Assembly: GCA_937894055.1 (NCBI GenBank)
Contig: CALDHQ010000232.1
Location: 1 to 12,454, forward strand
DNA from: an uncultured Polymorphobacter sp.
Lineage (GTDB): Bacteria; Pseudomonadota; Alphaproteobacteria; Sphingomonadales; Sphingomonadaceae
DNA length: 12,454 nucleotides
Reading direction: 5' to 3'
Part shown: positions 1-12,454 of the stretch, in pieces
Layout: the number at the start of each line of letters is the position of its first letter
How positions within the stretch are numbered: position 1 is the first letter of the stretch
The notes under the pieces: generated by a model
The model's database searches: none
Seen by the model: the letters and a program-made list of their open reading frames with translations, nothing else
Told to the model about the DNA's origin: nothing
Translations under genes and position numbers: made by a program

Positions 1-515
1 CCGATTCGCTGGTGGCGTGCATCGGCGGCGGCTCGAACGCCATCGGCCTGTTCCATCCGTTCCTCGATGACGCAGACGTCCGCATCATCGGCGTCGAAGC
101 TGCGGGCCACGGCCTTCAAACCGACGCGCACGCCGCCAGCCTGGCGGGCGGTCGCCCCGGCGTGCTCCACGGCAACAAGACGCTGCTGCTGCAGGACGAC
201 GACGGCCAGATCACCGAGGCGCATTCGATTTCGGCGGGCCTCGACTATCCCGGCATCGGCCCCGAGCACGCCTGGCTGCACAGCATCGGCCGCGTCGAAT
301 ACCAATCGGCGACCGACCAGGAAGCGCTCGACGCGTTCCAGATGCTGTGCCGGACCGAGGGTATCATCCCTGCGCTCGAACCCGCACATGCGCTGGCCGC
401 GCTGCGCCGGATCGCGCCGACGATGGCCAAGGACCAGATCATCATCGCCAATCTGTGCGGCCGCGGCGACAAGGACATCTTCACCGTCGCCGAAGCACTG
501 GGGTTCGGCCTGTGA
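1..515 (+). CDS. trpB: Tryptophan synthase beta chain, C-terminal part (5' end outside window)
   Basis: TrpB joins indole with L-serine to make L-tryptophan, using PLP, in the cytoplasmic alpha2-beta2 complex with TrpA. The frame is open from base 3, so the N-terminal half, including the PLP-binding lysine, lies upstream of the window; about 170 of roughly 400 residues are visible. The PLP-phosphate loop GGGSNA appears almost at once (bases 24-41), followed by GVEAAGHG, the [16 protein letters not shown] segment and the terminal CGRGDKDIF motif. The residue before GRGDKD, which contacts the PLP ring nitrogen and is Ser in E. coli, is Cys here; as I recall, Cys is a common alternative in this family. 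The stop codon overlaps the GTG start of trpA (GTGA), which indicates translational coupling and supports equal synthesis of the two subunits. Identification is secure. Confidence 0.97.
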
Positions 516-1342
516 CCGACCGCCTCTCTGCCCGCTTCGCCGCCTGCGCCGCCGCCAACCGCGCGGCGCTGGTCACCTTCGTCACTGCCGGTGATCCCGA
601 TCTCGAAACCTCGGGCCGCGTGCTGCGGTCGCTGGTCAAGGGCGGTGCCGACATTGTCGAACTCGGCATGCCGTTCACCGATCCGATGGCCGATGGCCCG
701 GCGATCCAGGCGGGCAACATCCGCGCGCTCGGCCACCATATGAAGCTGCGCGAGCTGCTCGAAATGGTGCGCGTCTACCGGCTCGAAGACAATGACACGC
801 CGATCATCCTGATGGGCTATTTCAACCCGGTGCTGAGCTACGGCCCCGAACGCTTCGCCGCCGATGCGGCCGCCGCCGGGCTTGACGGCACGATCATCGT
901 CGACCTGCCGCCCGAGGAAGACGCCGAGCTGGCGCCGTATCTGCAGGCCAGCGGCCTGCACATGGTGCGCCTCGCGACGCCAACGACCGATGCGGTGCGG
1001 CTGCCCAAGGTGCTCGGCGGCGCGTCGGGTTTCGTCTATTATGTCGCGGTCGCCGGCATCACCGGCACCGCATCGGCAGCAACCACCGACATCGCCGCTG
1101 CCGTGGCGCGGCTCAAGGCCAAGACCAATCTGCCGATTGCCGTGGGTTTCGGCATCAAGACGCCCGATGACGCGGCCGCCGTGGCGCGCCATGCCGACGG
1201 TGTCGTCGTCGGTTCGGCGATTGTCGCGCTGATCGGCGCGGCTGCCGAAGCCCGCGCCAACGACCTGCCCGAACAGGTCGAAGCATTCGTCCGTTCGCTA
1301 AGCACCGCGGTGCACGGCGCCCGCCAGGAGGCTGCCCAATGA
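512..1342 (+). CDS. trpA: Tryptophan synthase alpha chain
   Basis: TrpA cleaves indole-3-glycerol phosphate to indole and glyceraldehyde-3-phosphate and channels indole to TrpB. The frame stays open upstream to 347, but homology begins at a GTG at 512 that overlaps the trpB stop by 4 nt, giving 276 residues, close to the usual ~265-280. The TIM-barrel signature [18 protein letters not shown] carries both catalytic acids, Glu50 and Asp61 (Glu49 and Asp60 in E. coli). The C-terminal GITGT and [11 protein letters not shown] segments are the phosphate-binding loops. The stop codon overlaps the accD start (ATGA). The trpB-trpA-accD-folC order is a common alphaproteobacterial arrangement. The start is inferred from coupling and homology; no separate Shine-Dalgarno sequence is needed. 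Confidence 0.97.
1326..1331 (+). promoter_or_regulatory. Perfect Shine-Dalgarno sequence of accD inside trpA
   Basis: AGGAGG lies 7 nt before the accD ATG at 1339, within the last codons of trpA. It fixes the accD start and suggests that accD is initiated strongly on its own as well as by coupling to trpA termination. Confidence 0.85.
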
Positions 1343-2196
1343 GTTGGCTCACCCGCATCCGCCCGCGCCTGACCGGCTTTCTCGGCCGCCGCGAGACGCC
1401 CGACAATCTGTGGCACAAGTGCCGCGCCTGCAACGCCATGGTCTATACCAAGGAGTTCGACGAGAACCTTGGCGTCTGCCCGAAGTGCGAATTCCACGAA
1501 CGCATCGGCCCGAAGGAGCGCTTCGCGCAGGTGTTCGATGACGGCGTCCACACGCGGCTCGAAATCCCGGCAGTGCCCGAAGACCCGCTCGGTTTCCGCG
1601 ACCAGAAGAAATACACCGACCGCATCAAGGCGGCGCGCACCGCGACAGCCGAGCCCGAGGCGATGGCAGTCGCGACCGGCAAGATCGGCGGCGTCGATGC
1701 CGTGGTCGCGGTGCAGAACTTCGCGTTCATGGGCGGCTCGATGGGGCTGGCCGTGGGTGAGGCGTTCCTGACCGGCGCGATGGCGGCGGTCAAAGCCCGC
1801 GCGCCGTTCATCATCTTCACCGCCGCCGGCGGCGCGCGCATGCAGGAAGGCATTCTCAGCCTGATGCAGATGCCGCGCACCACCGTCGCGGTCGCCGAAC
1901 TGCGCGAGGCCGGGCTGCCGTACATCGTCGTGATGACCGACCCGACGACCGGCGGCGTCACTGCCTCCTACGCCATGCTCGGCGATATCCAGATCGCCGA
2001 ACCCGGTGCATTGATCGGTTTCGCCGGGCAACGCGTCATCGAAAACACCATCCGCGAAAAGCTGCCCGAAGGCTTCCAGCGCGCCGAATATCTGCTCGAA
2101 CACGGGATGCTCGACATGGTGGTGCCGCGCAAGGAGCTGCACGCGACGCTGGCGCGGCTGGTGGAATTGCTGATGCGCCAGCGCGTGGCTGCCTGA
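1339..2196 (+). CDS. accD: Acetyl-CoA carboxylase carboxyltransferase, beta subunit
   Basis: AccD pairs with AccA to transfer the carboxyl group from carboxybiotin to acetyl-CoA, producing malonyl-CoA for fatty-acid synthesis in the cytoplasm. The 285-residue protein has the N-terminal four-cysteine zinc ribbon (Cys28, Cys31, Cys47, Cys50) followed by a crotonase-like carboxyltransferase domain. Typical segments visible there include [25 protein letters not shown] and [18 protein letters not shown]. Length matches the family (about 280-305). The start is supported by a perfect AGGAGG 7 nt upstream and by the ATGA overlap with trpA. folC follows after only 4 nt, so the genes are almost certainly co-transcribed. 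The 445-codon reading frame on the opposite strand is a GC-driven shadow. Confidence 0.98.
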
Positions 2197-2200
2197 CAGC

Positions 2201-3526
2201 ATGGAGGCAGCGCACTCCGACAATCCGGTCCTTGATGCGCTGCTTTCGGTGGCGTTCAAGCTGCACCCGCAGACCGTCGACCTGTCGCTCGACCGGCTCG
2301 AGCGGCTGCTCAGCCGGCTCGGCAATCCGCATCGCAAGCTGCCGCCGGTGTTCCATGTCGCGGGCACCAACGGCAAGGGCTCGACGGTGGCGTTCCTGCG
2401 CGCCTGCCTCGAAGCGTCGGGCGCGCGCGTCCATGTCTATACCTCGCCGCACCTGGTGCGCTTCAACGAGCGCATCCGGCTCGCCGGGCATCTGATCGAC
2501 GATGACACGCTGATGCTCAACATGCGCGACGTGCTCAACGTCAACGCCAATATGCCGATCACCTTCTTCGAACTGACGACCGCGGTGGCGCTGCTGGCGT
2601 TCTCGCGCACCCCGGCCGACGCCTGCATCCTCGAAGTCGGGCTCGGCGGGCGCTTGGACGCAACCAACGTCATCGAAAACCCCGTCGTCACCGGCATCGC
2701 GCAGCTCGGCATCGATCACCAGAGCTGGCTCGGCAACTCGATCCTCGACATCGCGCGCGAAAAGGCCGGCATCGCCAAAAAGGGCGTGCCGATGTTGCTG
2801 TCGCGCTATCCCAAGACCGTCACCGCGCGCATCGCCGAAGTCGCCGGCCTCGTCGGCGCCAAAACGCTGGTGCGCGGCGAGGACTGGGATTCCGCGCTCT
2901 ACGAAGGCCAGCTGCATTACCGCGACGCGGCGGGCAAACTCAGCCTGCCGCTGCCGCGCCTCGCCGGCACGCACCAATATGACAACGCCGCGCTCGCCGT
3001 CGCGATGCTGCGCCACCAGTCGGCGGTCACCGTGCCCGACTCAGCGCTGCGCGCCGGCATGGGCTGGGCCGAATGGCCGGCGCGGCTGCAAAAGCTCGAC
3101 AAGGGGCCGCTGACCGCAAGGCTGGCGCCCGAAGCCGATGTCTGGCTCGACGGCGGCCACAACCCCGCCGCCGGCCGCGCCATCGCCGACGCCTTCCGCG
3201 GCCACGCGCTCGCCGAACGGCCGTTCTACATCGTGCTCGGCATGCTTTCGACCAAGGACGCCGCCGGCTTCCTCAAGCCGTTCGCCGGCCGCGCCACCGC
3301 CGTCTACGCCGTGCCGATCGCCCGCCACGAACACCACGACCCCGCCGAACTGGTGCGCATCGCCCGCGAAACCGGCCTGCCCGCCAGCACCTCGTCGAGC
3401 GTCGCCGAGGCGCTGTCCGAAATCGCCCGCGGCAGCGACCGCGCCCGGCCACCGGTGGTGCTGATTACCGGCTCGCTGCATCTGGCGGGTGAAGTGTTGG
3501 CGGCGAACGGGCAGGCGCCGGTTTAA
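2201..3526 (+). CDS. folC: Bifunctional folylpolyglutamate synthase / dihydrofolate synthase
   Basis: FolC adds L-glutamate to dihydropteroate and then further glutamates to folates, using ATP, in the cytoplasm. The 441-residue product is slightly longer than E. coli FolC (422). It carries the Mur-ligase-type P-loop HVAGTNGKGST at residues 52-62, the TSPHLVRFNERI motif at about 81-92, the ILEVGLGGRLDATN segment with the metal-binding glutamate near 148, and the C-terminal-domain motif LDGGHNPAAG near 315. The ATG is 4 nt after the accD stop with no strong ribosome binding site, so translation probably depends on accD. The gene ends the + strand operon and a strong hairpin follows its TAA. FolC is related to the Mur ligases, but the TNGKGST loop and overall pattern separate it from them. 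Confidence 0.97.
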   Translation: MEAAHSDNPVLDALLSVAFKLHPQTVDLSLDRLERLLSRLGNPHRKLPPVFHVAGTNGKGSTVAFLRACLEASGARVHVYTSPHLVRFNERIRLAGHLIDDDTLMLNMRDVLNVNANMPITFFELTTAVALLAFSRTPADACILEVGLGGRLDATNVIENPVVTGIAQLGIDHQSWLGNSILDIAREKAGIAKKGVPMLLSRYPKTVTARIAEVAGLVGAKTLVRGEDWDSALYEGQLHYRDAAGKLSLPLPRLAGTHQYDNAALAVAMLRHQSAVTVPDSALRAGMGWAEWPARLQKLDKGPLTARLAPEADVWLDGGHNPAAGRAIADAFRGHALAERPFYIVLGMLSTKDAAGFLKPFAGRATAVYAVPIARHEHHDPAELVRIARETGLPASTSSSVAEALSEIARGSDRARPPVVLITGSLHLAGEVLAANGQAPV

Positions 3527-3531
3527 CACCC

Positions 3532-3567
3532 CTCTTGATCCTCCCCGAAGGCGGGGAGGATCAAGAG
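3532..3567. terminator. Perfect 16-bp hairpin between convergent folC and tag, probable bidirectional terminator
   Basis: The arm CTCTTGATCCTCCCCG (3532-3547) is exactly reverse-complementary to 3552-3567, with an AAGG loop. It fills the 55-nt space between the folC stop and the tag stop on the other strand, where a shared terminator is expected. Neither side has a T-tract, so intrinsic termination may be inefficient. The element could instead act as a 3'-end stabiliser or be a copy of a dispersed intergenic palindrome. Confidence 0.6.
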
Positions 3568-3581
3568 CGCCGGGGCGTTCG

Positions 3582-4130
3582 CTAAACTGCCGGGTTCCGC
3601 CTGAAACACCGCGCCGCATGGTCGTCCACCAGCCCGACCGCCTGCATCCACGCATAGGTGATCACCGGCCCGACGAACTTGAAGCCGCGCGCCTTGAGCG
3701 CCTTCGAGATTTCGGCCGACAGCGGCGTTTGGGCGGGAACGGTGACGCCGTCGCCGACTAGCGGCACGCCGCCGACGAAGCTCCAGGCGAAGCCGCTGAA
3801 GTCCTCGCCGGCATCGCGCATGCGCAGGAATGCCTGGGCGCCGCCGATGGTGGCATTGATCTTGGCGCGGGCGCGGATGATGCCGGGGTCGCCCATCAGC
3901 CGTTCGACATCATCGGCGGTGAACGCCGCGACGATTTCGGGGTCGAAGCCGGCGAACGCGGCGCGGAAGCCGTCGCGGCGGTGCAGGATGGTGCGCCATG
4001 ACAGCCCGGCCTGAAAGCCTTCGAGCATCAGCATTTCCCACAGCGCGCGGCTGTCGCGGACGGGCACGCCCCATTCGTTGTCGTGATAGGCGGCCATAAC
4101 GGCATCGCCTTCGGCCCAGCTGCAGCGCAT
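3582..4130 (-). CDS. tag: DNA-3-methyladenine glycosylase I
   Basis: Tag excises 3-methyladenine from alkylated DNA as the first step of base-excision repair. The 182-residue product (E. coli: 187) shows the family pattern throughout. MRCSW at the N-terminus and HAARC near the C-terminus provide the zinc ligands Cys3, His16, His171 and Cys175. LEGFQAGLSW contains the catalytic-pocket Glu37 and Trp45. The GIIRxRxKI segment and GFKFVGP motif are also present. An in-frame ATG lies 30 nt further upstream (4160), but the 4130 start matches the conserved MxRCxW beginning and has AGGGGAA about 8 nt before it, so it is preferred. It lies 49 nt downstream of olsB on the same strand and is probably co-transcribed with it; no functional link is obvious. 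It ends at the hairpin shared with folC. Confidence 0.95.
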   Translation of the reverse strand: MRCSWAEGDAVMAAYHDNEWGVPVRDSRALWEMLMLEGFQAGLSWRTILHRRDGFRAAFAGFDPEIVAAFTADDVERLMGDPGIIRARAKINATIGGAQAFLRMRDAGEDFSGFAWSFVGGVPLVGDGVTVPAQTPLSAEISKALKARGFKFVGPVITYAWMQAVGLVDDHAARCFRRNPAV

Positions 4131-4179
4131 GTCAGATTCCCCTGTCGCTGCACCATTCAACCGCCGCGCTGCCTCGGGG

Positions 4180-5031
4180 TCAAGCCGCCGTGGCGTCGGC
4201 GCCGAGGTCGAAGCGGCCGGCGTAGCGGCGGGTGATCTGCGCCACCGGCATCACCACGAACACGTCGACGGTGTTGAACTGGCGGTCGATGAAGGCGCCG
4301 TCGCCGACCATCGCGCCGACGCGCAGATAGCCCTTGAGTAGCGGCGGCAGCGTCCGTGCGGTAGCGCGCGCGTCGATGCGTTCGGCGGGCAGGCGGTCCA
4401 TTTCGACAAAGTGCGCGGGCAGCGTGCGGGCGCGCAGCTCGGGCGGCGCAAGGTGGTGATGGTACAGGTACGACAGTTCGGCGGCGTGCGCGGCGGGGTC
4501 GGTGCCGTGCAGCGACGCGCAGCCGAACAGATGGCCGATGCGGTGCGCCTGCAAATAGCTGGCGATACCGCGCCAGAGAAGGCTGATCGTCGTGGTGTTG
4601 CGGTACGCCGGCGCGACGCAGCTGCGCCCGAGTTCGAGCAACTGGCCGCTGGCGGGCGCCTGCGCGAGCAGCGGCGTCAGGTCATATTCGCCGGCCGAAT
4701 AGAAACCGCCATGCGCCTGCGCCACCGACTGGCGCAGCAAGCGGTAGGTGCCGACAACCTGCCCGCGGACACCGGCGTCATGGTCGATGACCAGCAGATG
4801 ATCGCAGACATTGTCGTGCGCGTCGATGTCGCGCCGCGACGCCAGCATCGCGCGCGTCGGTTGCGCGCCCATTTCGTCGTAAAAGATCCGGTAGCGCAGC
4901 GCCTGCGCCGCAGCGACTTCGACGCCCGATTGCGCGAGGCGCACTTCGAGCTGGCCGACACGGATTGGCGTCTCGGGCGGTGCCGGCGTCCAGCCTGGCC
5001 GCGCCGGGGGGATTCGTACTGGAAGGCCCAT
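4180..5031 (-). CDS. olsB: L-ornithine N(alpha)-acyltransferase-like protein (OlsB, GNAT-type fold)
   Basis: OlsB transfers a 3-hydroxyacyl chain from acyl carrier protein to the alpha-amino group of ornithine, giving lyso-ornithine lipid, the first step in making phosphorus-free ornithine lipids. The 283-residue sequence carries the pattern expected for this family: LRYRIFYDEMGA near residue 48, RDIDAHDNVCDHLLVID, VVGTYRLL, LLELGRSCVAPAYR, LFGCASLHGTDP, LSYLYHHHLAP, LPPLLKGYLRVGAMVGDGAFID and FNTVDVFVV. The start at 5031 has GGAG 5 nt upstream; an in-frame ATG at 5058 (nine residues more, with AGGG before it) is an alternative. olsA, the partner O-acyltransferase, is not in the window. A PhoB-box-like repeat lies upstream. 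Some relatives are annotated as hemolysin-like or generic acyltransferases, so the substrate is inferred from family resemblance. Confidence 0.85.
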   Translation of the reverse strand: MGLPVRIPPARPGWTPAPPETPIRVGQLEVRLAQSGVEVAAAQALRYRIFYDEMGAQPTRAMLASRRDIDAHDNVCDHLLVIDHDAGVRGQVVGTYRLLRQSVAQAHGGFYSAGEYDLTPLLAQAPASGQLLELGRSCVAPAYRNTTTISLLWRGIASYLQAHRIGHLFGCASLHGTDPAAHAAELSYLYHHHLAPPELRARTLPAHFVEMDRLPAERIDARATARTLPPLLKGYLRVGAMVGDGAFIDRQFNTVDVFVVMPVAQITRRYAGRFDLGADATAA

Positions 5032-5089
5032 GCTTGCTCCGCCGTGCCGTTTCACCATGGCGTTGCCCTAGCGACCGGAAATGACAAAC

Positions 5090-5109
5090 CGGTCACTCGG
5101 CCGTGACCG
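5090..5109 (-). terminator. Weak hairpin after ampG, possible terminator
   Basis: CGGTCAC and GTGACCG form a 7-bp stem with a 6-nt loop, 11 nt past the ampG stop on the - strand. It is followed by a modestly T-rich stretch (GTTTGTCATTT). It overlaps the candidate PhoB box, and the two readings compete: the inverted repeat could be an ampG terminator, an operator, or a by-product of the direct repeats. Confidence 0.3.
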
Positions 5110-5120
5110 CTGCGTGACAG
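5099..5120 (-). promoter_or_regulatory. Possible PhoB box upstream of olsB
   Basis: Read on the - strand, CTGTCAC-GCAG-CGGTCAC (5120 down to 5103, plus the 4-nt tail to 5099) is a tandem pair of 7-mers at 11-nt spacing. It resembles the PhoB consensus of two CTGTCAY units separated by 4 nt; each unit differs at one base at most, apart from the pyrimidine position. A further TTGTCAT lies on the same 11-nt register at 5087-5081. The site starts just after the ampG stop, about 45-90 nt before the candidate olsB starts, leaving room for a -10 element. In Sinorhizobium, ornithine-lipid synthesis is phosphate-controlled through PhoB, which makes the match sensible. The linker lacks the usual A/T richness and the region also forms an inverted repeat, so chance remains possible. 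Confidence 0.42.
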
Positions 5121-6455
5121 TCAGCGCGCCGCGTTGCGCGCGGCAATCGCGACATCATCGACCAGCCCGCGCCGCATCATCACCACGAACAGCACGATGC
5201 CGGGCAGCGCCGCGACGGTGGTCAGCAGATAGAATTGCACATAGCCGAGCGCCTCGATCATCGCGCCCGCGGTCGTGCCGCTGACGAAGCGGCCGAGCAC
5301 CGACGCCGCCGCCGACAGCAGCGCGAACTGCGTCGCGGTGAAGCGCAGATCGCACAGCGCTGACAAATAGGCGACGACCGCGACGCCGCCGATACCGCTG
5401 CTGAAATTCTCGAAACCGATGGCCGCGGCCATGCCGATGTTCGAATGGCCGGCCTGCGCGAGTGCCGCGAAGCTGAGGTTCGACACTGCCATCAGGATCA
5501 GGCTGACCAGCACCGAGCGTTTCAGCCCCAGTCGCGTGTAGAGGATGCCGCCGACGAAGACGCCGACGAGCAGCGCGACCAGTCCGAACGCCACGTCATA
5601 GTAAGCGACTTCGTCCTTGCTGAACCCCAGGTCGTTGAACAGCAGCCGGAACGACAGGTTGGCGACGGTATCGCCGAGCTTGTGGATCAGGATGAACGCC
5701 AGCACCAGCCCGGCGCCGGGGCGCTGCATGAAGTCGGCGAGCGGCGCAATCACCGCGTCGCTGACCGCCGCCCAGCCGCGCTTGGTTGAGTTGACGACCG
5801 CATGGCGCACCGGCTCGCCGAGCAGCACTCCCGCCGCCACCGCCGGCAGCGCGAACAGCGTGGCCGCGACATAGGCGGTGCTCCAGCCGGCGCGCTCGGC
5901 GATGACCAGCGCCAGCGCGCCCGCCGCCGATGCACCGATGCGCCAGCCATATTGCGACATGCCCGACCCGACGCCGAGCTGTTCGGGGGTCAGCGTTTCG
6001 ATGCGGAACGCGTCGATGACGATGTCATAGGTCGCGCCGGCAAACGCCACGCACAAGGTCGCGGCGACCACGGTCGACAGCGAAGTCTGCGGGTTCGCCA
6101 GCCCGAGCCACGCCACTGCCGCCATCACGGCGGCCGCCACGACGACCAGCCACGCCCGGCGCTGGCCGATGGCGTTGGCCAGCAGCGGAATCCGCACGCG
6201 GTCGATGGCCGGCGCCCACAGGAATTTGAAATTGTACATCAGGAAGGCCAGCGCGAACGCCGTCACCGCCTTTTTCTCGATGCCAGCTTCGGCGAGGCGG
6301 GTGGTCAGCGTCGCGCCGATCATCGCGAACGGAAACCCCGACGATATGCCGAGCAGCAGCGCCCCGATCGGCGCACGCTGGGCATAGGGGCGGACGCCGG
6401 GTGGCAGGTGGCGGCGCCAGTCGGCGGGGGCGGCGGAAGCGGGCGTTTCGGTCAT
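5121..6455 (-). CDS. ampG: AmpG-like muropeptide permease (major facilitator superfamily)
   Basis: AmpG-type transporters bring GlcNAc-anhydroMurNAc muropeptides from periplasm to cytoplasm for peptidoglycan recycling. The 444-residue product is a polytopic membrane protein with about 12 hydrophobic segments. It has the family's N-terminal pattern (GISSGFPFAMIGATLTTRLAEAGI, then YNFKFLWAPAIDRV and a GQRRAWL loop), and DIVIDAFRIETLTPEQLGVGSGMSQYGWRIG corresponds to the AmpG segment with DIVxDAW. E. coli AmpG is longer (491 residues, 14 segments), so this is the shorter form seen in many alphaproteobacteria. The frame stays open to 6776, but homology supports the ATG at 6455; an ATG at 6467 is possible. 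No strong ribosome binding site precedes either. The gene is divergent from the symporter at 6570, with 114 nt between starts. The exact substrate is inferred; calling it a general MFS transporter would be the conservative reading. Confidence 0.82.
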   Translation of the reverse strand: MTETPASAAPADWRRHLPPGVRPYAQRAPIGALLLGISSGFPFAMIGATLTTRLAEAGIEKKAVTAFALAFLMYNFKFLWAPAIDRVRIPLLANAIGQRRAWLVVVAAAVMAAVAWLGLANPQTSLSTVVAATLCVAFAGATYDIVIDAFRIETLTPEQLGVGSGMSQYGWRIGASAAGALALVIAERAGWSTAYVAATLFALPAVAAGVLLGEPVRHAVVNSTKRGWAAVSDAVIAPLADFMQRPGAGLVLAFILIHKLGDTVANLSFRLLFNDLGFSKDEVAYYDVAFGLVALLVGVFVGGILYTRLGLKRSVLVSLILMAVSNLSFAALAQAGHSNIGMAAAIGFENFSSGIGGVAVVAYLSALCDLRFTATQFALLSAAASVLGRFVSGTTAGAMIEALGYVQFYLLTTVAALPGIVLFVVMMRRGLVDDVAIAARNAAR

Positions 6456-6569
6456 GCGCGCCACCATAGCGTGCCGCGCGCGCGTGTCACGCATATGGCG
6501 TTCGCGCGCGTTCCACGCTAACCGTGGCGGACGCGCCGTTATGCGCCGCGTCGAGACAGGGGACCGTGC

Positions 6570-7811
6570 ATGGGCAAGCGCCTGACCTATTATATTCTGG
6601 CGGCGCTGGTGGCGGGATTGTTCACCGGCTGGGCGGTCAATGCCTATGCCGCGTCGCCCGACGCCGCGAAGGAGGTCGCGCACTATCTGTCGATTGTCAC
6701 CGACCTGTTCCTGCGGCTGATCAAGATGATCATCGCGCCGCTGGTGCTGTCGACGCTGACGGTGGGCATCGCGCACATGGGCGACGGCAGCGCGCTCGGC
6801 CGGATGTTCGGGCGGACGCTCGGCTGGTTCATCGGTGCGTCACTGGTGTCGATCACGCTCGGGCTGATCATGGTCAATTGGTTGCAGCCCGGCGTCGGCG
6901 TCGGGCTGGTGCCGCCGGTGAGTGCGAGTTCGGGGATCCAGACCGCGGCGTTCAGTCTCAAGGATTTCGTCACGCATCTGGTACCCAAGTCGATTTTCGA
7001 GGCGATGGCGACCAACGAGATCCTGCAGATCGTGGTGTTTTCGGTGTTTGCCGGCGTCGGGCTGCTGGCGCTGGGCGATACCGGCAAGCCGCTGACGCAC
7101 CTGCTCGATGCGGTGGCGCAGCTGATGCTCAAGATTACCGGCTATGTGATGAACTTCGCGCCGTTCGCGGTGTTTGCCGCGGTCGCCGCCGCCGTCGCCA
7201 CCGAAGGGCTGGGCATCCTCGTCACCTTCGGCAAGTTCATCGGCGGCTTCTACCTCAGCCTCGGTATGCTGTGGATTCTGCTGCTGGCGGCCGGTGCGGT
7301 GGTCATCGGCCTGCCGCGCATCCTCGGGCTGAGCAAGGCAATCCGCGAGCCGTTCCTGCTGGCGTTCGCCACCGCGAGTTCGGAAAGCGCCTATCCCAAG
7401 ACGCTGGAGGCGCTCGAACGCTTCGGGGTGCCGCCGCGCATTGCCAGCTTCGTGCTGCCGCTGGGCTATTCGTTCAACCTCGATGGCTCGATGATGTATT
7501 GCAGCTTTGCCACCATCTTCATCGCGCAGGCGTACGGCATCGATCTGTCACTCGGGCAGGAAATTACCATGCTGCTGCTGCTGATGGTGACCAGCAAGGG
7601 CATGGCCGGCGTGCCGCGCGCCAGCCTGGTCGTCATCGCTGCGACCTTGAGCTTCTTCAACATTCCCGAGGCCGGGCTGCTGCTCATCCTCGCGGTCGAT
7701 CACTTCCTCGACATGGGGCGCAGCGCGACGAACGTGGTCGGCAATGCCGTGGCGACCGCCGTCGTGGCGAAATGGGAAGGCGAGCTCGGGCCGGAGAAGG
7801 CTGCGGCCTGA
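6570..7811 (+). CDS. Dicarboxylate/amino acid:cation symporter (DAACS family)
   Basis: This 413-residue inner-membrane protein belongs to the GltP/DctA/GltPh family, which imports C4-dicarboxylates or acidic amino acids with H+ or Na+. Visible landmarks are LFLRLIKMIIAPLVLSTL near residue 46, MNFAPFAVFAAVA in TM5, the hairpin-1 serine motif ASSESAYPKTLE, then GYSFNLDGSMMY (the NMDGT-type cation-site motif with Ser in place of Thr), SKGMAGVPRAS in hairpin 2 and DHFLDMGRSATNVVGNAVAT in TM8, whose Asp and Asn residues bind substrate and cation. The start has AGGGGA 6 nt upstream. It stands alone on this strand: ampG is divergent and the DUF805 gene is convergent, with 13 nt between stops. Motifs do not settle whether the substrate is dicarboxylate or glutamate/aspartate, so no symbol is given. 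Confidence 0.93.
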   Translation: MGKRLTYYILAALVAGLFTGWAVNAYAASPDAAKEVAHYLSIVTDLFLRLIKMIIAPLVLSTLTVGIAHMGDGSALGRMFGRTLGWFIGASLVSITLGLIMVNWLQPGVGVGLVPPVSASSGIQTAAFSLKDFVTHLVPKSIFEAMATNEILQIVVFSVFAGVGLLALGDTGKPLTHLLDAVAQLMLKITGYVMNFAPFAVFAAVAAAVATEGLGILVTFGKFIGGFYLSLGMLWILLLAAGAVVIGLPRILGLSKAIREPFLLAFATASSESAYPKTLEALERFGVPPRIASFVLPLGYSFNLDGSMMYCSFATIFIAQAYGIDLSLGQEITMLLLLMVTSKGMAGVPRASLVVIAATLSFFNIPEAGLLLILAVDHFLDMGRSATNVVGNAVATAVVAKWEGELGPEKAAA

Positions 7812-7824
7812 GCCCGCCGCGCCG

Positions 7825-8298
7825 TCATTCGCTGATCGGATCAGGCCCGAAGCGGTTTTCGCCGATGGTGCCACGGCTGCAATACCAGACGATCAGCAGG
7901 ACCGACACGATGCCGAGCAGCAGGCCGCCGGCTGCCAGCCACTTGCCCGCGCCTTCGACCCCGACGGCTGTCGCGCCCGCCGCACCGCCAAGGATCACTG
8001 CTGGGATCCCCGGCATCAGCAGCCACCAGCCGCGCCGGTCGGTGTCGTGCAGCCGCCGCACCGCCACCGCCAGCCCCGGCAGGAACAGCGCCAGCGACAC
8101 CAGCGCCCCGGCATAGCCAGTCGCGCCGGCGATCATCGCATCAAGCCCGTTGAGCATCACATCGACGCAAAACGCCAGCAGCGTCGCCAGAATCAGGAAC
8201 AGCTGGAACCACCAATATTCCTTGCGCCGCGCCCGCCCCGAGAAGGTCGCATACTTCTTCAGCGGCTCGACCATCCACTGCGTTGCCGACTTGTCCAT
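7825..8298 (-). CDS. DUF805 family membrane protein
   Basis: This 157-residue inner-membrane protein has the DUF805 pattern: an N-terminal FSGRARRKEYWWFQLF segment (residues 19-34), hydrophobic helices, the central VRRLHDTDRRGWWLL motif near residue 80, and a final IVWYCSRGTIGENRFGPDP tail. Such proteins have about four membrane segments and no established biochemical role. The start at 8298 has AGGGGA about 7 nt upstream on the - strand. A longer open frame running into comM (to 8802) is not supported. It lies 29 nt downstream of comM on the same strand, so the two are probably co-transcribed. It converges with the symporter, with only 13 nt between stops and no separate terminator visible. 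Confidence 0.92.
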   Translation of the reverse strand: MDKSATQWMVEPLKKYATFSGRARRKEYWWFQLFLILATLLAFCVDVMLNGLDAMIAGATGYAGALVSLALFLPGLAVAVRRLHDTDRRGWWLLMPGIPAVILGGAAGATAVGVEGAGKWLAAGGLLLGIVSVLLIVWYCSRGTIGENRFGPDPISE

Positions 8299-8327
8299 TG
8301 TCTGTCCCCTCATTTGCCCGGAACCCC

Positions 8328-9836
8328 TTAATTCACCGGTGCCTGCCGACGATAACTCAAGGCTTCGGCGATATGAAGCCGCGTCACGCTGGCGCTGCCC
8401 TCCAAATCGGCAAGCGTGCGGGCAACACGCAACACGCGGTGATAGCCGCGCGCCGACAGCCTCAGCGCCTGTGCCGCCTGCGTCAGCAGCTTGGCGCCGG
8501 GTGCATCGGGCGTGGCGACTTCTTCGAGCAGCTTGCCGTCGGCCTCGGCGTTGCTGCGTGCCTTGTGGTCGGCGTAGCGCGCGGTCTGGATGGCACGCGC
8601 TTTCGCCACGCGCGCGCCGACCTGTGCCGAGCTTTCGGACGGCGGCGGCAAGGTCAGATCGGCGGCGCTGACCGCGGCGACATCGACATGTAGGTCGATG
8701 CGGTCGAGCAGCGGCCCCGACACGCGCGCCTGATAGTCGGCGGCGCACTTCGGCGCGCGCGAACAGGCTTGGCTGGCGTCGCCCAGATGTCCGCAGCGGC
8801 ACGGGTTCATCGCCGCGATCAGCTGGACGCGCGCCGGATAGGTGACGTGCGCGGCGGCGCGCGCCACCATCACCACGCCGGTCTCGAGCGGCTGGCGCAG
8901 CGAATCGAGCACGCCGCGCTGGAACTCGGGGAGTTCGTCGAGGAACAGCACGCCGAGATGCGCCAAGCTGACCTCGCCGGGTCGCGCCTTGGCGCCTCCG
9001 CCGACGAGTGCGGGCATCGACGCGCTATGGTGCGGCGCGCGGAAGGGGCGGGCGCGCAGCAGTTTGCCGCCCTCCAACTCGCCCGCCATCGACGCCACCA
9101 TCGAGACTTCGAGCGCCTCGGCGGGGGTAAGTTCGGGCAGGATTCCCGGCAGGGCGGCGGCGAGCAGCGACTTGCCCGACCCCGGCGGGCCGCTCATCAG
9201 CAAGTTATGGCCGCCGGCCGCGGCGATTTCGAGCGCGCGCTTGGCGGTTTCCTGGCCCTTGATCTCGTTCATGTCGGGGCCGTGCCATGTCCCCTCGGCT
9301 ATCGTGCGGACCGGCGGCGACAGCAGCTGCGTGCCCTTGAGGTGGTTGATCAGCGTCAGCAGGTCGGGCGCGGCGAGTACCTCGACTTCGCCCGCCCACG
9401 CCGCCTCGCCACCTTGCGCGGCCGGGCAGATCAACCCGAGTTCGTGCTCGGCGGCATGCAGTGCCGCGAGCAGCACGCCGGGCACCGGCGCGACGCGGCC
9501 ATCGAGCCCGAGCTCACCGACGACGACATATTGGTCGAGCACCTCGGCCGACACCAACCCCATCGCGCTGAGCAGCCCGAGCGCAATCGGCAGGTCGTAA
9601 TGCGAGCCTTCCTTGGGCAGGTCGGCGGGTGACAGATTGACGACGACGCGGCGCGGCGGCAGCGCCAGCCCGATAGCGTCGAGTGTCGCCTGCACCCGCT
9701 CGCGGCTTTCCTTGACCGCCTTGTCGGGCAGCCCGACGAGCACGAACGCCGCCATGCCGCCGGTGATCTGGACCTGGACATCGACGCTGCGTGCCTCGAG
9801 CCCGAGGAACGCGACAGTGGCGACATGAGCGACCAT
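8328..9836 (-). CDS. comM: ComM/YifB family AAA+ ATPase (Mg-chelatase-like branch-migration helicase)
   Basis: Members of this family form hexameric ring helicases; Vibrio ComM drives branch migration during natural transformation, and homologues are widespread in non-competent bacteria. The 502-residue product has the usual order: an N-terminal S5/Lon-like ChlI domain (about 1-165, with VGLPDKAVKESRERVQATL and VVNLSPADLPKEGSHYDLPIALG), then the Mg-chelatase AAA+ core (about 190-400) with Walker A GPPGSGKS near 215-222 and Walker B GVLFLDELPEF near 295-305. The Cys-rich NPCRCGHLGD...C...C insertion, RVSGPLLDRIDLHV and the C-terminal LSARGYHRVLRVARTLADLEG helical domain follow. Length is normal (about 500-510). 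AGGA lies about 7 nt before the ATG, and the MVAHVATVAFLG beginning is typical. No other competence genes are visible, so a role in DNA uptake here is unproven. Confidence 0.96.
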   Translation of the reverse strand: MVAHVATVAFLGLEARSVDVQVQITGGMAAFVLVGLPDKAVKESRERVQATLDAIGLALPPRRVVVNLSPADLPKEGSHYDLPIALGLLSAMGLVSAEVLDQYVVVGELGLDGRVAPVPGVLLAALHAAEHELGLICPAAQGGEAAWAGEVEVLAAPDLLTLINHLKGTQLLSPPVRTIAEGTWHGPDMNEIKGQETAKRALEIAAAGGHNLLMSGPPGSGKSLLAAALPGILPELTPAEALEVSMVASMAGELEGGKLLRARPFRAPHHSASMPALVGGGAKARPGEVSLAHLGVLFLDELPEFQRGVLDSLRQPLETGVVMVARAAAHVTYPARVQLIAAMNPCRCGHLGDASQACSRAPKCAADYQARVSGPLLDRIDLHVDVAAVSAADLTLPPPSESSAQVGARVAKARAIQTARYADHKARSNAEADGKLLEEVATPDAPGAKLLTQAAQALRLSARGYHRVLRVARTLADLEGSASVTRLHIAEALSYRRQAPVN

Positions 9837-10004
9837 GAATTATCCTTTGCGAAAAACAGTCACCTGTCCCGCAGCAAAAACCATGACCCTGAAGCCACAG
9901 TAGCGCGACAATCGCATCACACAAGCCCGCTACATAGGTCTGCTTGGCCGCCGTTAAGCCATGATGCCTTGCGCGCCCGCAAACCCCCTCCTAATCGCTG
10001 TGGA
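9837..10004. other. Divergent intergenic region between comM and a small membrane-protein gene
   Basis: About 170 nt, less GC-rich than the genes around it. It must hold the comM promoter (- strand) and probably one for the + strand gene at 10005. I see no convincing -35/-10 pair, repeat or RNA fold. A + strand reading frame through it (from 9825) is an upstream extension of the small membrane protein without homology-like character. Confidence 0.4.
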
Positions 10005-10373
10005 ATGCAGCGCACGCGTCCCACTTTCTTGCAGACGTTGATCCGCAGCGAACCTGTGCGCGTGGCGCAACTGGCGGCGGGGTTCATCCTGCTGCTCGCG
10101 GCGCCGGTGATTGCCACCATCCCGCAGCCCATTCCCATCGGCATCATCGTGTTCGGCTTCGGGCTGGCGCTGATCCTCAAGAACTCGCTGTGGGCGCGGC
10201 GCAAATATGTGCGCTGGCAGCACCGCTACCCGCGCGCCGGCCGGATTACCGACATGGGGATGCGCCGCCGCCGCAAGGTGCCGGCGCCCGCGGCCGTTAA
10301 ACAGGTCGCGGCGAATACGGATGACGTGCCGCCGCCGCAGCGCGATGTGGTGTCGGCGGCAACGCGCGACTGA
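10005..10373 (+). CDS. Hypothetical small membrane protein, two TM segments
   Basis: I do not recognise a named family. The 122-residue product starts with a short basic head, then has two hydrophobic stretches (about residues 18-39 and 43-58) separated by a proline-containing turn, IPQPIPIG. A strongly basic segment follows (ARRKYVRWQHRYPRAGR, then MGMRRRRK) and a polar Pro/Val-rich tail. This suggests a hairpin in the inner membrane with both ends in the cytoplasm by the positive-inside rule. The general shape recalls the small PGPGW-type transmembrane proteins, but I cannot confirm that. The ATG at 10005 was chosen because the hydrophobic architecture begins there; the upstream extension to 9825 is low-complexity, and the ribosome binding site is weak. 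It is divergent from comM and 129 nt upstream of the methyltransferase. Confidence 0.65.
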   Translation: MQRTRPTFLQTLIRSEPVRVAQLAAGFILLLAAPVIATIPQPIPIGIIVFGFGLALILKNSLWARRKYVRWQHRYPRAGRITDMGMRRRRKVPAPAAVKQVAANTDDVPPPQRDVVSAATRD

Positions 10374-10502
10374 CGTGAGGTCGTGGCGGTTGGCCGCAAG
10401 AAGTTGCTGGCAAGCCATGATTGAAATTGTTAATCATTCGTTGACAGGGCTTGTGCCGAAAGGTGCTGGTTGCGAGACTGTGGTTTCAAAGGGGGGCTCG
10501 AA

Positions 10503-11126
10503 ATGACCGGATTCTATGATCGCCACATTTTGCCGTACGTCATCGGCTGCGCGTGCGGCAGCAAGCCGATTGCCAAGCAGCGCGCCAAGGTGGTGCCGCT
10601 CGCCACGGGACGGGTGCTTGAACTCGGCATCGGCGGCGGGCTGAACCTGCCGTTCTACAACCCCAAGAACGTCATCAGCGTCCAGGGCGTCGACCCCAGT
10701 GCCGAGCTGCGCGCCATCGCGCATGAGGCGCCGCGGCCGCAGGGCCTGCTGGTCGAAGTGCGCGAAGGCACCGCCGAGGCGCTGCCGTTCGGCGAGCACA
10801 GCTTTGACAGCATCGTCTGCACCTTCACGCTGTGTTCGGTGCACACGCCGGCGAAGGCACTTGCCGAGGCGCGGCGCGTGCTCAAGCCCGGCGGCACCCT
10901 GTTTTTCAGCGAGCACGGGCTGGCACCCGATGCCGGTGTCCAGAAATGGCAGCACCGCGTCGAGCCCATCTGGAAGCGCATCGCCGGCGGTTGCCACCTG
11001 ACGCGACCAGTGTCGGAGACGATCAAGGCGGCGGGGTTCAACCTGACCAAGAGCGAGTCGATGTATCTGCCCGGCACGCCGCGCTTTGCCGGCTGGAGCG
11101 AATGGGGCACCGCAACGCCGGCTTGA
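10503..11126 (+). CDS. Class I SAM-dependent methyltransferase, METTL7-like
   Basis: This 207-residue cytoplasmic protein is a Rossmann-fold methyltransferase. The SAM-binding motif I is VLELGIGGGLNLPFY (Glu40 to Gly46 as core), an acidic GVDPS turn follows motif II, and VCTFTLCSV with VLKPGGTLFFSEHG gives motifs IV-V. The combination of VCTxxLCSV, a GGxxxFxEH strand, a WQHRVEPIWKRIAGGCHLTR segment and a short C-terminus resembles the METTL7 (thiol methyltransferase-like) group more than UbiE, though bacterial members are often labelled generically. The substrate is unknown. The start is well supported by a purine-rich AAAGGGGGG (10488-10496) 6 nt upstream; an extension to 10470 is less likely. 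rpmH follows after 118 nt with its own probable promoter, so co-transcription with it is not assumed. Confidence 0.88.
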   Translation: MTGFYDRHILPYVIGCACGSKPIAKQRAKVVPLATGRVLELGIGGGLNLPFYNPKNVISVQGVDPSAELRAIAHEAPRPQGLLVEVREGTAEALPFGEHSFDSIVCTFTLCSVHTPAKALAEARRVLKPGGTLFFSEHGLAPDAGVQKWQHRVEPIWKRIAGGCHLTRPVSETIKAAGFNLTKSESMYLPGTPRFAGWSEWGTATPA

Positions 11127-11159
11127 AGCCGTATTGCGCGTCCACGCCCCCGCTGTGCA

Positions 11160-11188
11160 TTGACTTGGGCACGCGCTGCCGCTATGCG
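11160..11188 (+). promoter_or_regulatory. Probable sigma-70 promoter of rpmH
   Basis: TTGACT (11160-11165) matches the -35 consensus at five of six bases. With 16-17 nt spacing it is followed by CTATGC/TATGCG (11182-11188), a partial -10 match. Placed about 57-85 nt before the rpmH start, it would give a leader of roughly 50 nt. A strong promoter is expected for the rpmH-rnpA unit. The weak -10 limits confidence. Confidence 0.5.
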
Positions 11189-11202
11189 CCCACCCTTGAT
11201 TT

Positions 11203-11222
11203 CGGCCAGCTTGCGTTGGCCG
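11203..11222 (+). other. Short hairpin in the rpmH leader
   Basis: CGGCCA and TGGCCG form a perfect 6-bp stem around an 8-nt loop, ending 10 nt before the GAGGA ribosome binding site of rpmH (11233-11237). If transcribed from the promoter just upstream it would lie near the 5' end of the mRNA, where it could affect stability or translation. A stem this short can arise by chance in GC-rich DNA. Confidence 0.25.
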
Positions 11223-11244
11223 CCGTGATTCTGAGGATAATGTA

Positions 11245-11379
11245 ATGAAGCGGACCTTTCAGCCCAGCAAGCTCGTGCGCGCCCGTCGCCATGGCTTCCG
11301 CACGCGCATGGCAACGCCGGGCGGCCGCAAGGTGCTCGCCAACCGCCGCGCCAAGGGCCGCGCGAAGCTGAGCGCCTAA
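11245..11379 (+). CDS. rpmH: 50S ribosomal protein L34
   Basis: L34 is a very basic protein of the large ribosomal subunit. The 44-residue product, [18 protein letters not shown] followed by [21 protein letters not shown] and a short tail, matches the family from end to end (the usual length is 44-47 residues). GAGGA lies 7 nt before the ATG. It is followed after 38 nt by rnpA, the near-universal bacterial arrangement. The gene is short and easy to miss in automatic scans, but its identity is certain. Confidence 0.98.
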
Positions 11380-11417
11380 TCCACGCAGTGCCGGCGCCGG
11401 ACCCGATTTCGGCACCC

Positions 11418-11888
11418 ATGATCATCATTTCTGCACGGCGCGACTTTCTGGCGGCCAATGCCGGCCGTCGCGCGCCGACGCCCGGCTTCCTGTTGCTGGT
11501 GCGTGACCGCCTTGATGCCGACCCGCAAATGCGCGCCGGCTTCACCGTCACCAAGAAAATCGGCAATTCGGTGGTGCGTAACCGGCTGAAGCGTCGGCTG
11601 CGCGCATTAGTGCGGCAGGTCTTGCCCGAAGCCGGCATCACCGGTGCCGACCATGTGCTGATCGGCCGCGATGCCGCGCTGATCGCTTCTGCGATCGGCT
11701 CTGACGGCGCGGTGCCGCAAAGCTTTGCGGCCAGCATGGAAGAGGCCGTCCAGCTGGCCAACACCAAGGCGCATGCAGGCGACGCCGTGTTGATGTCGCC
11801 CGCCTGCGCCAGTTTTGATCAGTTCCGCGATTACGAAGTGCGCGGGGATAGCTTTCGCGAAATTGTTGCAGGGTTGACTGCCAGATGA
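11418..11888 (+). CDS. rnpA: Chimeric frame: N-terminal RNase P protein (RnpA) joined in frame to C-terminal MurD
   Basis: RnpA is the protein cofactor of RNase P, which matures tRNA 5' ends. The first ~88 residues of this 156-residue frame are RnpA: SARRDFLAAN near the N-terminus, AGFTVTKKIGNSVVRNRLKRRLRALVRQVLP with the RNR signature, and GADHVLIG. The normal last ~30 residues of RnpA are missing. After LIGRDAAL (residues 81-88; bases 11658-11681) the sequence continues as the end of MurD, carrying AGDAVLMSPACASFDQFRDY and EVRGDSFREIV. The ATG at 11418 was chosen from the usual RnpA N-terminus; a GTG at 11388 is possible, and neither has a good ribosome binding site. Spacing from rpmH is normal. 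An intact RnpA cannot be made from this copy. An assembly artefact is the leading explanation. Confidence 0.9.
   Translation: MIIISARRDFLAANAGRRAPTPGFLLLVRDRLDADPQMRAGFTVTKKIGNSVVRNRLKRRLRALVRQVLPEAGITGADHVLIGRDAALIASAIGSDGAVPQSFAASMEEAVQLANTKAHAGDAVLMSPACASFDQFRDYEVRGDSFREIVAGLTAR
11658..11888 (+). pseudogene. murD: 3' fragment of murD (UDP-MurNAc-L-Ala:D-Glu ligase), 5' part absent
   Basis: MurD adds D-glutamate to UDP-MurNAc-L-alanine during peptidoglycan precursor synthesis. Only about the last 70 of ~450 residues are here. Evidence is the C-terminal-domain signature SPACASFDQF with EVRGDSF, the upstream GRDAALIA segment that aligns with GRDGAQLAA of E. coli MurD, and the position: the TGA stop overlaps the ftsW ATG (ATGA), as expected in the dcw cluster. 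The central ATPase domain and N-terminal UDP-binding domain are missing, so this fragment cannot be an active ligase. It is in frame with the rnpA 5' part. Confidence 0.88.
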
Positions 11889-12454
11889 GCGGAGCGCGGC
11901 CCTATTTGCCCACCAGCGGTCGGCGTGTGCCGCAGCCCGCGCCGTTCCCGCAGGATCGCCGCCGTCAGCTGCTGGTATGGTGGCGCGAGATTGATCGCAC
12001 GCTGCTGGGGCTGGTTCTGGCGCTGATGGTGCTCGGCACGATCGCGGTCTATGCCGCATCGCCTGCCAGTGCGGGGCGGCTATCGACCAGCGAAGAAACC
12101 TTGAGCGAGGCCTATTTCTTCTGGCTGCACTTGCGCTGGCTTGCGGTTGGCCTCCTCGCGATGTTCATCGCCTCGCTCCTGCCCAAGGAAACCACGCGGC
12201 GGCTGGCGATCATCCTTGCCGCCGCCATGCTTGTCGCGCTGGTGCTGGTGCCGATCTTCGGGGGCGAAGTGAAGGGCGCGAAGCGCTGGCTGTGGATCGG
12301 CTTCAGTCTCCAGCCGTCCGAATTTCTCAAGCCCGGCTTTGCCATCGCGGTGGCGTGGATCCTCTCATGGCGAGTGCGCGATCCCAATATCCCGGTGATT
12401 CCGATCACCGTCGCCCTGATGCTGGTGATCGCCGCGCTGCTGGTGCTGGGCGGC
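11885..12454 (+). CDS. ftsW: Peptidoglycan glycosyltransferase FtsW, N-terminal part (runs off window end)
   Basis: FtsW is the SEDS-family septal peptidoglycan polymerase, working with FtsI at the division site. The open frame from the ATG at 11885 covers 190 residues with no stop before the window ends; full-length proteins have about 400. A polar, proline-rich cytoplasmic head (residues 1-38) precedes TM1 (about 39-58, LLGLVLALMVLGTIAVYAAS), a TM2 starting near FFWLHLRWLAVGL, and TM3 (LAIILAAAMLVALVLV). The SEDS motif GAKRWLWIGFSLQPSEFLKP follows, at about 130-150, with hydrophobic segments after it. That motif and the extended N-terminus favour FtsW over RodA, as does the preceding murD end with ATGA overlap. 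In the normal dcw order murG follows, outside the window. Confidence 0.95.
   Translation, partial: MSGARPYLPTSGRRVPQPAPFPQDRRRQLLVWWREIDRTLLGLVLALMVLGTIAVYAASPASAGRLSTSEETLSEAYFFWLHLRWLAVGLLAMFIASLLPKETTRRLAIILAAAMLVALVLVPIFGGEVKGAKRWLWIGFSLQPSEFLKPGFAIAVAWILSWRVRDPNIPVIPITVALMLVIAALLVLGG

Follow-up and report, generated by a model that had tools for sequence, protein, structure and literature searches.

The open frame at 11418–11888 on the forward strand, which begins as RnpA and ends as MurD, is in our judgement an assembly artefact, an inter-species join and not a real gene, with a probability of about 96% as estimated from the sequence comparisons described below. The stretch of DNA analysed (12,454 bases, hereafter the window) is a complete contig, C232, of a draft genome of 3,183,805 bases in 724 contigs, with a completeness of 84.66% and a contamination of 2.95%. 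Searches for RNA families and tRNAs in the window found none. The features on which the argument is built are the following, where "native" means belonging to the genome's own genus, G001 and G002 are two genomes of this genus, and C33 is another contig of the same draft genome.

1–11682, no strand: native part of the contig, with the gene order of the same-genus genomes (blastn to contig C3 of G001 and contig C258 of G002)
11245–11379, + strand: rpmH (ribosomal protein L34), intact and native, adjoining rnpA (TIGR01030, 81.3 bits, positions 1–44 of 44)
11418–11682, + strand: native rnpA, first ~86–88 codons, the last 24–28 codons missing (residue agreement with G001 and G002; TIGR00188)
11676–11683, no strand: join 1, from rnpA to foreign murD, leaving ~772 bases to the contig end (last base aligned to G001 and G002: 11682)
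11683–11888, + strand: foreign murD tail, last ~68 codons, from outside the genus (TIGR01087 at frame residues 77–150; 46% identity to the C33 MurD)
11885–12130, + strand: foreign ftsW start, Altererythrobacter-like (locus L067, 43/50 residues over ftsW 1–50 and nearest for residues 1–88)
12113–12157, no strand: join 2, within ftsW, either at a conserved 24–27-base word or no more than ~16 bases past it (triplet breakpoints 12127–12157)
12131–12454, + strand: foreign ftsW middle, Novosphingobium-like, cut by the contig end (match to locus L058)

The RnpA and MurD parts of the frame

The frame codes for 156 aa followed by a stop, and is RnpA-like up to residue ~86 and MurD-like from there. On the RnpA side, residues 15–85 matched profile positions 19–86 of 111 of TIGR00188 (rnpA) with 45.9 bits, above the cut-off of 38.35, while the Pfam family Ribonuclease_P covered residues 6–87 with 58 bits (cut-off 22.3); the RnpA core motif RNRLKRR is found at residues 54–60, and the expected neighbour, rpmH, lies upstream. 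On the MurD side, residues 77–150 matched positions 367–439 of 441 of TIGR01087 (murD) with 69.8 bits (E 2.3e-19), a score below the whole-protein cut-off of this family (211.95), and Mur_ligase_C, at residues 58–130, also stayed below its cut-off (23.7 bits against 28.4). The MurD part thus consists of the last ~75 of the 441 profile positions, and the full domain is absent.

The first 86 residues are identical to the RnpA of G001 at 84/86 positions and to that of G002 at 85/86. A metagenome RnpA of 110 aa with 8 member sequences, P0002, likewise shares 85/86 residues with the chimera and has an ordinary end, which shows, at the level of sequence, that a near-identical RnpA occurs in the usual form. 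From residue 87 to 110, only 3/24 residues agree with each of these three proteins. The C-terminal part of RnpA is absent from the frame, as the TIGR00188 match stops at profile position 86 of 111; the native proteins of G001 and G002 are 110 and 114 aa long, with a normal C-terminal end.

A preliminary description of this DNA had read here one uninterrupted frame with an RnpA start and a MurD end, and the ORF and the TIGR00188 and TIGR01087 matches bear this out; the MurD similarity after residue 88, which it had put forward as a test, is present, since the TIGR01087 match covers residues 77–150. That both parents are truncated also holds, but the amounts proposed do not: RnpA has lost 24–28 residues (relative to the native 110 and 114 aa) instead of ~30, and MurD about 366 profile positions instead of ~380.

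Loss of similarity to the genus inside rnpA

By blastn, contig C3 of G001 aligned with the window in three main pieces, at 91–94% identity, over 135–11682 minus a short gap, and contig C258 of G002 aligned over 8097–11682 at 90% identity. The similarity to both genomes ends at the identical base, 11682. In steps of 100 bases, the identity to G001 was 92–99% in most steps from 10501 on; the step 11501–11600 had 97/100 identical bases and the step after 11600 had 75 of 82 aligned bases identical, with no alignment beyond. The order of the native rpmH-rnpA-yidC locus in these two contigs is identical to that of the window until rnpA residue ~86, but there a complete RnpA is followed by yidC, whereas the window turns to foreign murD-ftsW. 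Downstream of rnpA, the next long frames in G001 and G002 are those that we take to be yidC and a YihA-type GTPase.

The reading in frame across join 1 is a matter of chance, of about 1 in 3. The G+C content changes little across the join (from 0.678 to 0.649), which counts against an assembly join, and it was rejected as a join marker, the difference being too small. A 16-base word at 11666–11681 recurs on the opposite strand of loci L090, L059 and L057; it is probably a chance occurrence in G+C-rich DNA.

Native murD-ftsW and the rnpA copy question

The same genome carries on contig C33 a MurD frame of 423 aa (375.8 bits, over the cut-off), followed with a slight overlap by ftsW (322.6 bits; strict cut-off 337.5). 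The order murD then ftsW of this native mur/fts cluster is that of the window end; however, the C33 pair is native, with 91.3% identity to G001 over 2477 bases, whereas the window copy is far more distant. Window bases 11683–12454 gave against C33 or G001 only one match of 104 bases at 77–78%, and at the protein level the window pieces are 46% identical to the C33 MurD over query residues 68–153 and ~43% identical to the C33 FtsW over residues 19–175.

A second rnpA was not found in the same assembly, which is 84.66% complete, and the native sequence past the join was not found in the own genome either (40/217 and 40/465 candidates scored); both results count against an assembly join. The intact native rnpA locus is seen in relatives, not in the window's own genome. 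The lack of a second copy is a thing that can occur in an incomplete assembly in which the broken rnpA is the only one.

A second switch inside ftsW

The next ORF, 11885–12454, is ftsW, cut by the contig end, and belongs to the same foreign piece as the MurD tail. An FtsW tree of 79 rows (67 different) unites C33, G001 and G002 (100/100) and places the window row in a group of nine (99/97), together with rows from Novosphingobium and from Sphingomonadaceae MAGs; its terminal branch there is long (0.42). Because of this long branch, ftsW was compared part by part. The closest compared locus for residues 1–30, 31–60 and 61–88 is L067, which comes from a MAG recorded as Altererythrobacter xiamenensis (72/90, 80/90 and 64/84 bases), with other loci within one base of it at residues 61–88. 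For residues 89–120, 121–150 and 151–186 the closest are Novosphingobium-type loci (85/96, 79/90 and 96/108 bases, against 54/96, 62/90 and 55/75 for L067); among them L058, of Novosphingobium sp. NDB2Meth1, agrees at 87/96 residues (90.6%) over ftsW 92–187.

Ten triplet tests, each setting L067 or L056 against one of five Novosphingobium-type loci, all placed the break at 12127–12157, with chi-square values of 39.9–79.4 and 0/5000 permutations as high in each; the triplets are not independent, as L058 and L142 give identical figures and L067 or L056 takes part in all ten. The chi-square of the 18 control sequences was at most 14.7; these were run with the pair L067/L058 only, were chosen for an alignment of 170 residues or more that begins no later than residue 3, and include some duplicates. 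By itself the permutation count lacks specificity, because control L114 (chi-square 14.7) gave 0/500 and control L086 2/500; at sequence level the argument for a switch in ftsW is carried by the gap between chi-square values of 40–79 and of at most 14.7. These tests led us to reject one common source for the entire right-hand piece.

The window has an exact word in common with L067 at 12105–12129, and another, at 12113–12139, with the Novosphingobium loci L063, L094 and L140; these words of 24–27 bases are conserved in several genera. Of the ten breaks, six fall inside 12113–12139 and the remaining four up to 16 bases past it, although, as a conserved stretch has no informative sites, a break next to the word is partly expected. 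Conserved words like this are typical points for an assembler to switch between genomes, and the frame reads on through join 2 because homologous positions of one gene meet there. The comparison of shared words concerns join 2, the murD donor for join 1 not having been found.

No close donor of the 772-base piece was found at DNA level in 396 genomes of the order, where 46 genomes matched at E ≤ 1e-40 and the best match outside the own genome was 80% over 479 bases. Of the 195 genomes of the best match's genus, 27 matched at E ≤ 1e-90, the best again at 80%; the genome contigs collection gave 46 matched loci and no close donor, and in the protein collection the best among the best 120 of 137 matches was 79% over 83% of the query. 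As for the murD tail, the best matches are mixed, and of the 396 genomes only 4 other than the window's own matched the 79-residue MurD end at E ≤ 1e-17 (52–64%); its donor was found neither in the genomes of the order and genus nor among the contig loci and the protein collection, which also counts against an assembly join. The last contig bases, 12446–12454, leave the ftsW of the relatives, and the protein matches stop at residue 187–188 of 190.

Occurrence of the fusion elsewhere

A protein search with the fusion gave 4868 matches, and among the best 120 the window's own is one sequence on one contig. The MurD tail is absent from the other 119 relatives, as are the motifs SPAC and SFDQF (0 of 119), and the MurD end had against them one chance match only (27 residues, E 0.39). 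All of 40 genomes, the own included, match the chimera, each on one parent or the other, and no match in the 39 others unites RnpA and MurD in one such frame. The widest match outside the own genome, on contig C9 of G034 (query 26–155, 39%), belongs to a 474-aa frame, a length that fits MurD, and the rnpA of this genome lies apart on C3. The fusion is absent from the same-genus G001 and G002 as well. In a literature search for an rnpA-murD fusion, rnpA was not mentioned in the best-matching papers.

Origin of the joined sequence

Two switches within the last 772 bases, together with a native murD-ftsW on C33, make an inter-species assembly join the best explanation. The comparisons show the taxonomic switches at the positions given above, and we infer that these are a product of the assembly (a chimeric read, or an error in the graph or in an overlap) and did not take place in a cell. 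Bases 1–11682 would be those of the genome's own species, running into an ordinary rnpA; at about 11682 the assembler would have passed to murD-ftsW from other members of the Sphingomonadales also present in the sample, and a further change of genome would have followed within ftsW, at DNA conserved between genera, before the contig ended 772 bases past join 1. Different taxa on the two sides of a sharp border, as expected of a chimeric contig, were found both at 11682 and at 12127–12157, and the position of join 1 near a contig end (772 bases) in a draft of 724 contigs was also counted for an assembly join. Chimeric contigs are described in PMC7881036 as a metagenome assembly error that is likelier for species of low to intermediate coverage; the contigs assessed there likewise have parts from different genomes, but the error is here inferred from sequence comparison and not from read mapping, and two switches occur within 772 bases. 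The preliminary description had also favoured an assembly join, in agreement with the loss of similarity at 11682, the C33 pair, the contig-end position and the switch in ftsW. It did not include the foreign ftsW start and the patchwork end; of the intact copies it proposed to look for, murD was found, on C33, and a second rnpA was not.

A true rearrangement or gene transfer, in which rnpA recently received a mosaic piece of murD-ftsW from other Sphingomonadales, so that a MurD tail replaced the last helix of RnpA, is very unlikely. The cell would then depend for RnpA function on the truncated protein or on an unassembled copy, a proposal to which we give equally little weight. Join 1 is indeed in frame, the harm would be confined to rnpA, given the intact murD and ftsW on C33, and an intact rnpA could sit in the missing 15% of the genome; but the inserted piece would itself be a mosaic of two genera ending just at the contig end, and it is absent from G001, G002 and the other 119 relatives among the best 120 of 4868 matches.

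Still far less probable is that the frame is expressed as a genuine, functional RnpA-MurD fusion protein. That a single open frame (156 aa) follows rpmH and has RNRLKRR in place would suit this reading, but the MurD part contains no full domain, the fusion was found once only among the best 120 of 4868 matches, and none of the 39 other genomes joins both parents in such a frame. We give the same very low credence to a mere binning error, with the whole contig derived from another organism: the draft has 2.95% contamination, yet 11.7 kb match the genus in gene order at 91–94%, a level like that of C33 (89–91%), and the switch lies inside the contig, so this reading is refuted for bases 135–11682.

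With the assembly join as the preferred reading, the case is of interest only as a warning: routine gene calling will accept an open, in-frame join of this sort, which matches two families well, as a novel RNase P-Mur ligase fusion. We advise against recording the fusion as a gene, and recommend trimming the contig at about 11682 so that its final 772 bases are dropped from the genome. If the fusion were true, RnpA would tolerate the replacement of its C-terminal end.

Other observations

Among the proteins matched by the fusion, P0003 (153 aa, the second-ranked other match by bits) was rejected as a MurD chimera: it is made up of two successive RnpA pieces, contains no MurD, lies on a contig of 1189 bases, and is probably another assembly chimera in rnpA. 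P0058, which covers 92% of the query, was set aside as well, its tail being unrelated. In P0009, P0054, P0070 and P0076 the RnpA frame has a long N-terminal extension resembling rpmH translated in another frame, and these may be overlong gene calls or true overlaps; P0070 also has PF09656, like the small membrane protein at 9825–10373 of the window.

The window stretch 8206–8378 aligns twice in G001, in pieces ending at position 8340 and starting at position 8760 of locus L040, and G001 thus seems, from the alignment, to hold it in two copies ~420 bases apart. Two other stretches of this locus (L040:18531–18612 and about L040:15959–16017) are the source of 71 matches in the window's genome (66 and 5, from 40/465 candidates scored); many of these matches occur on both strands, and the two stretches represent an intergenic repeat of this genus, dispersed and in part palindromic.
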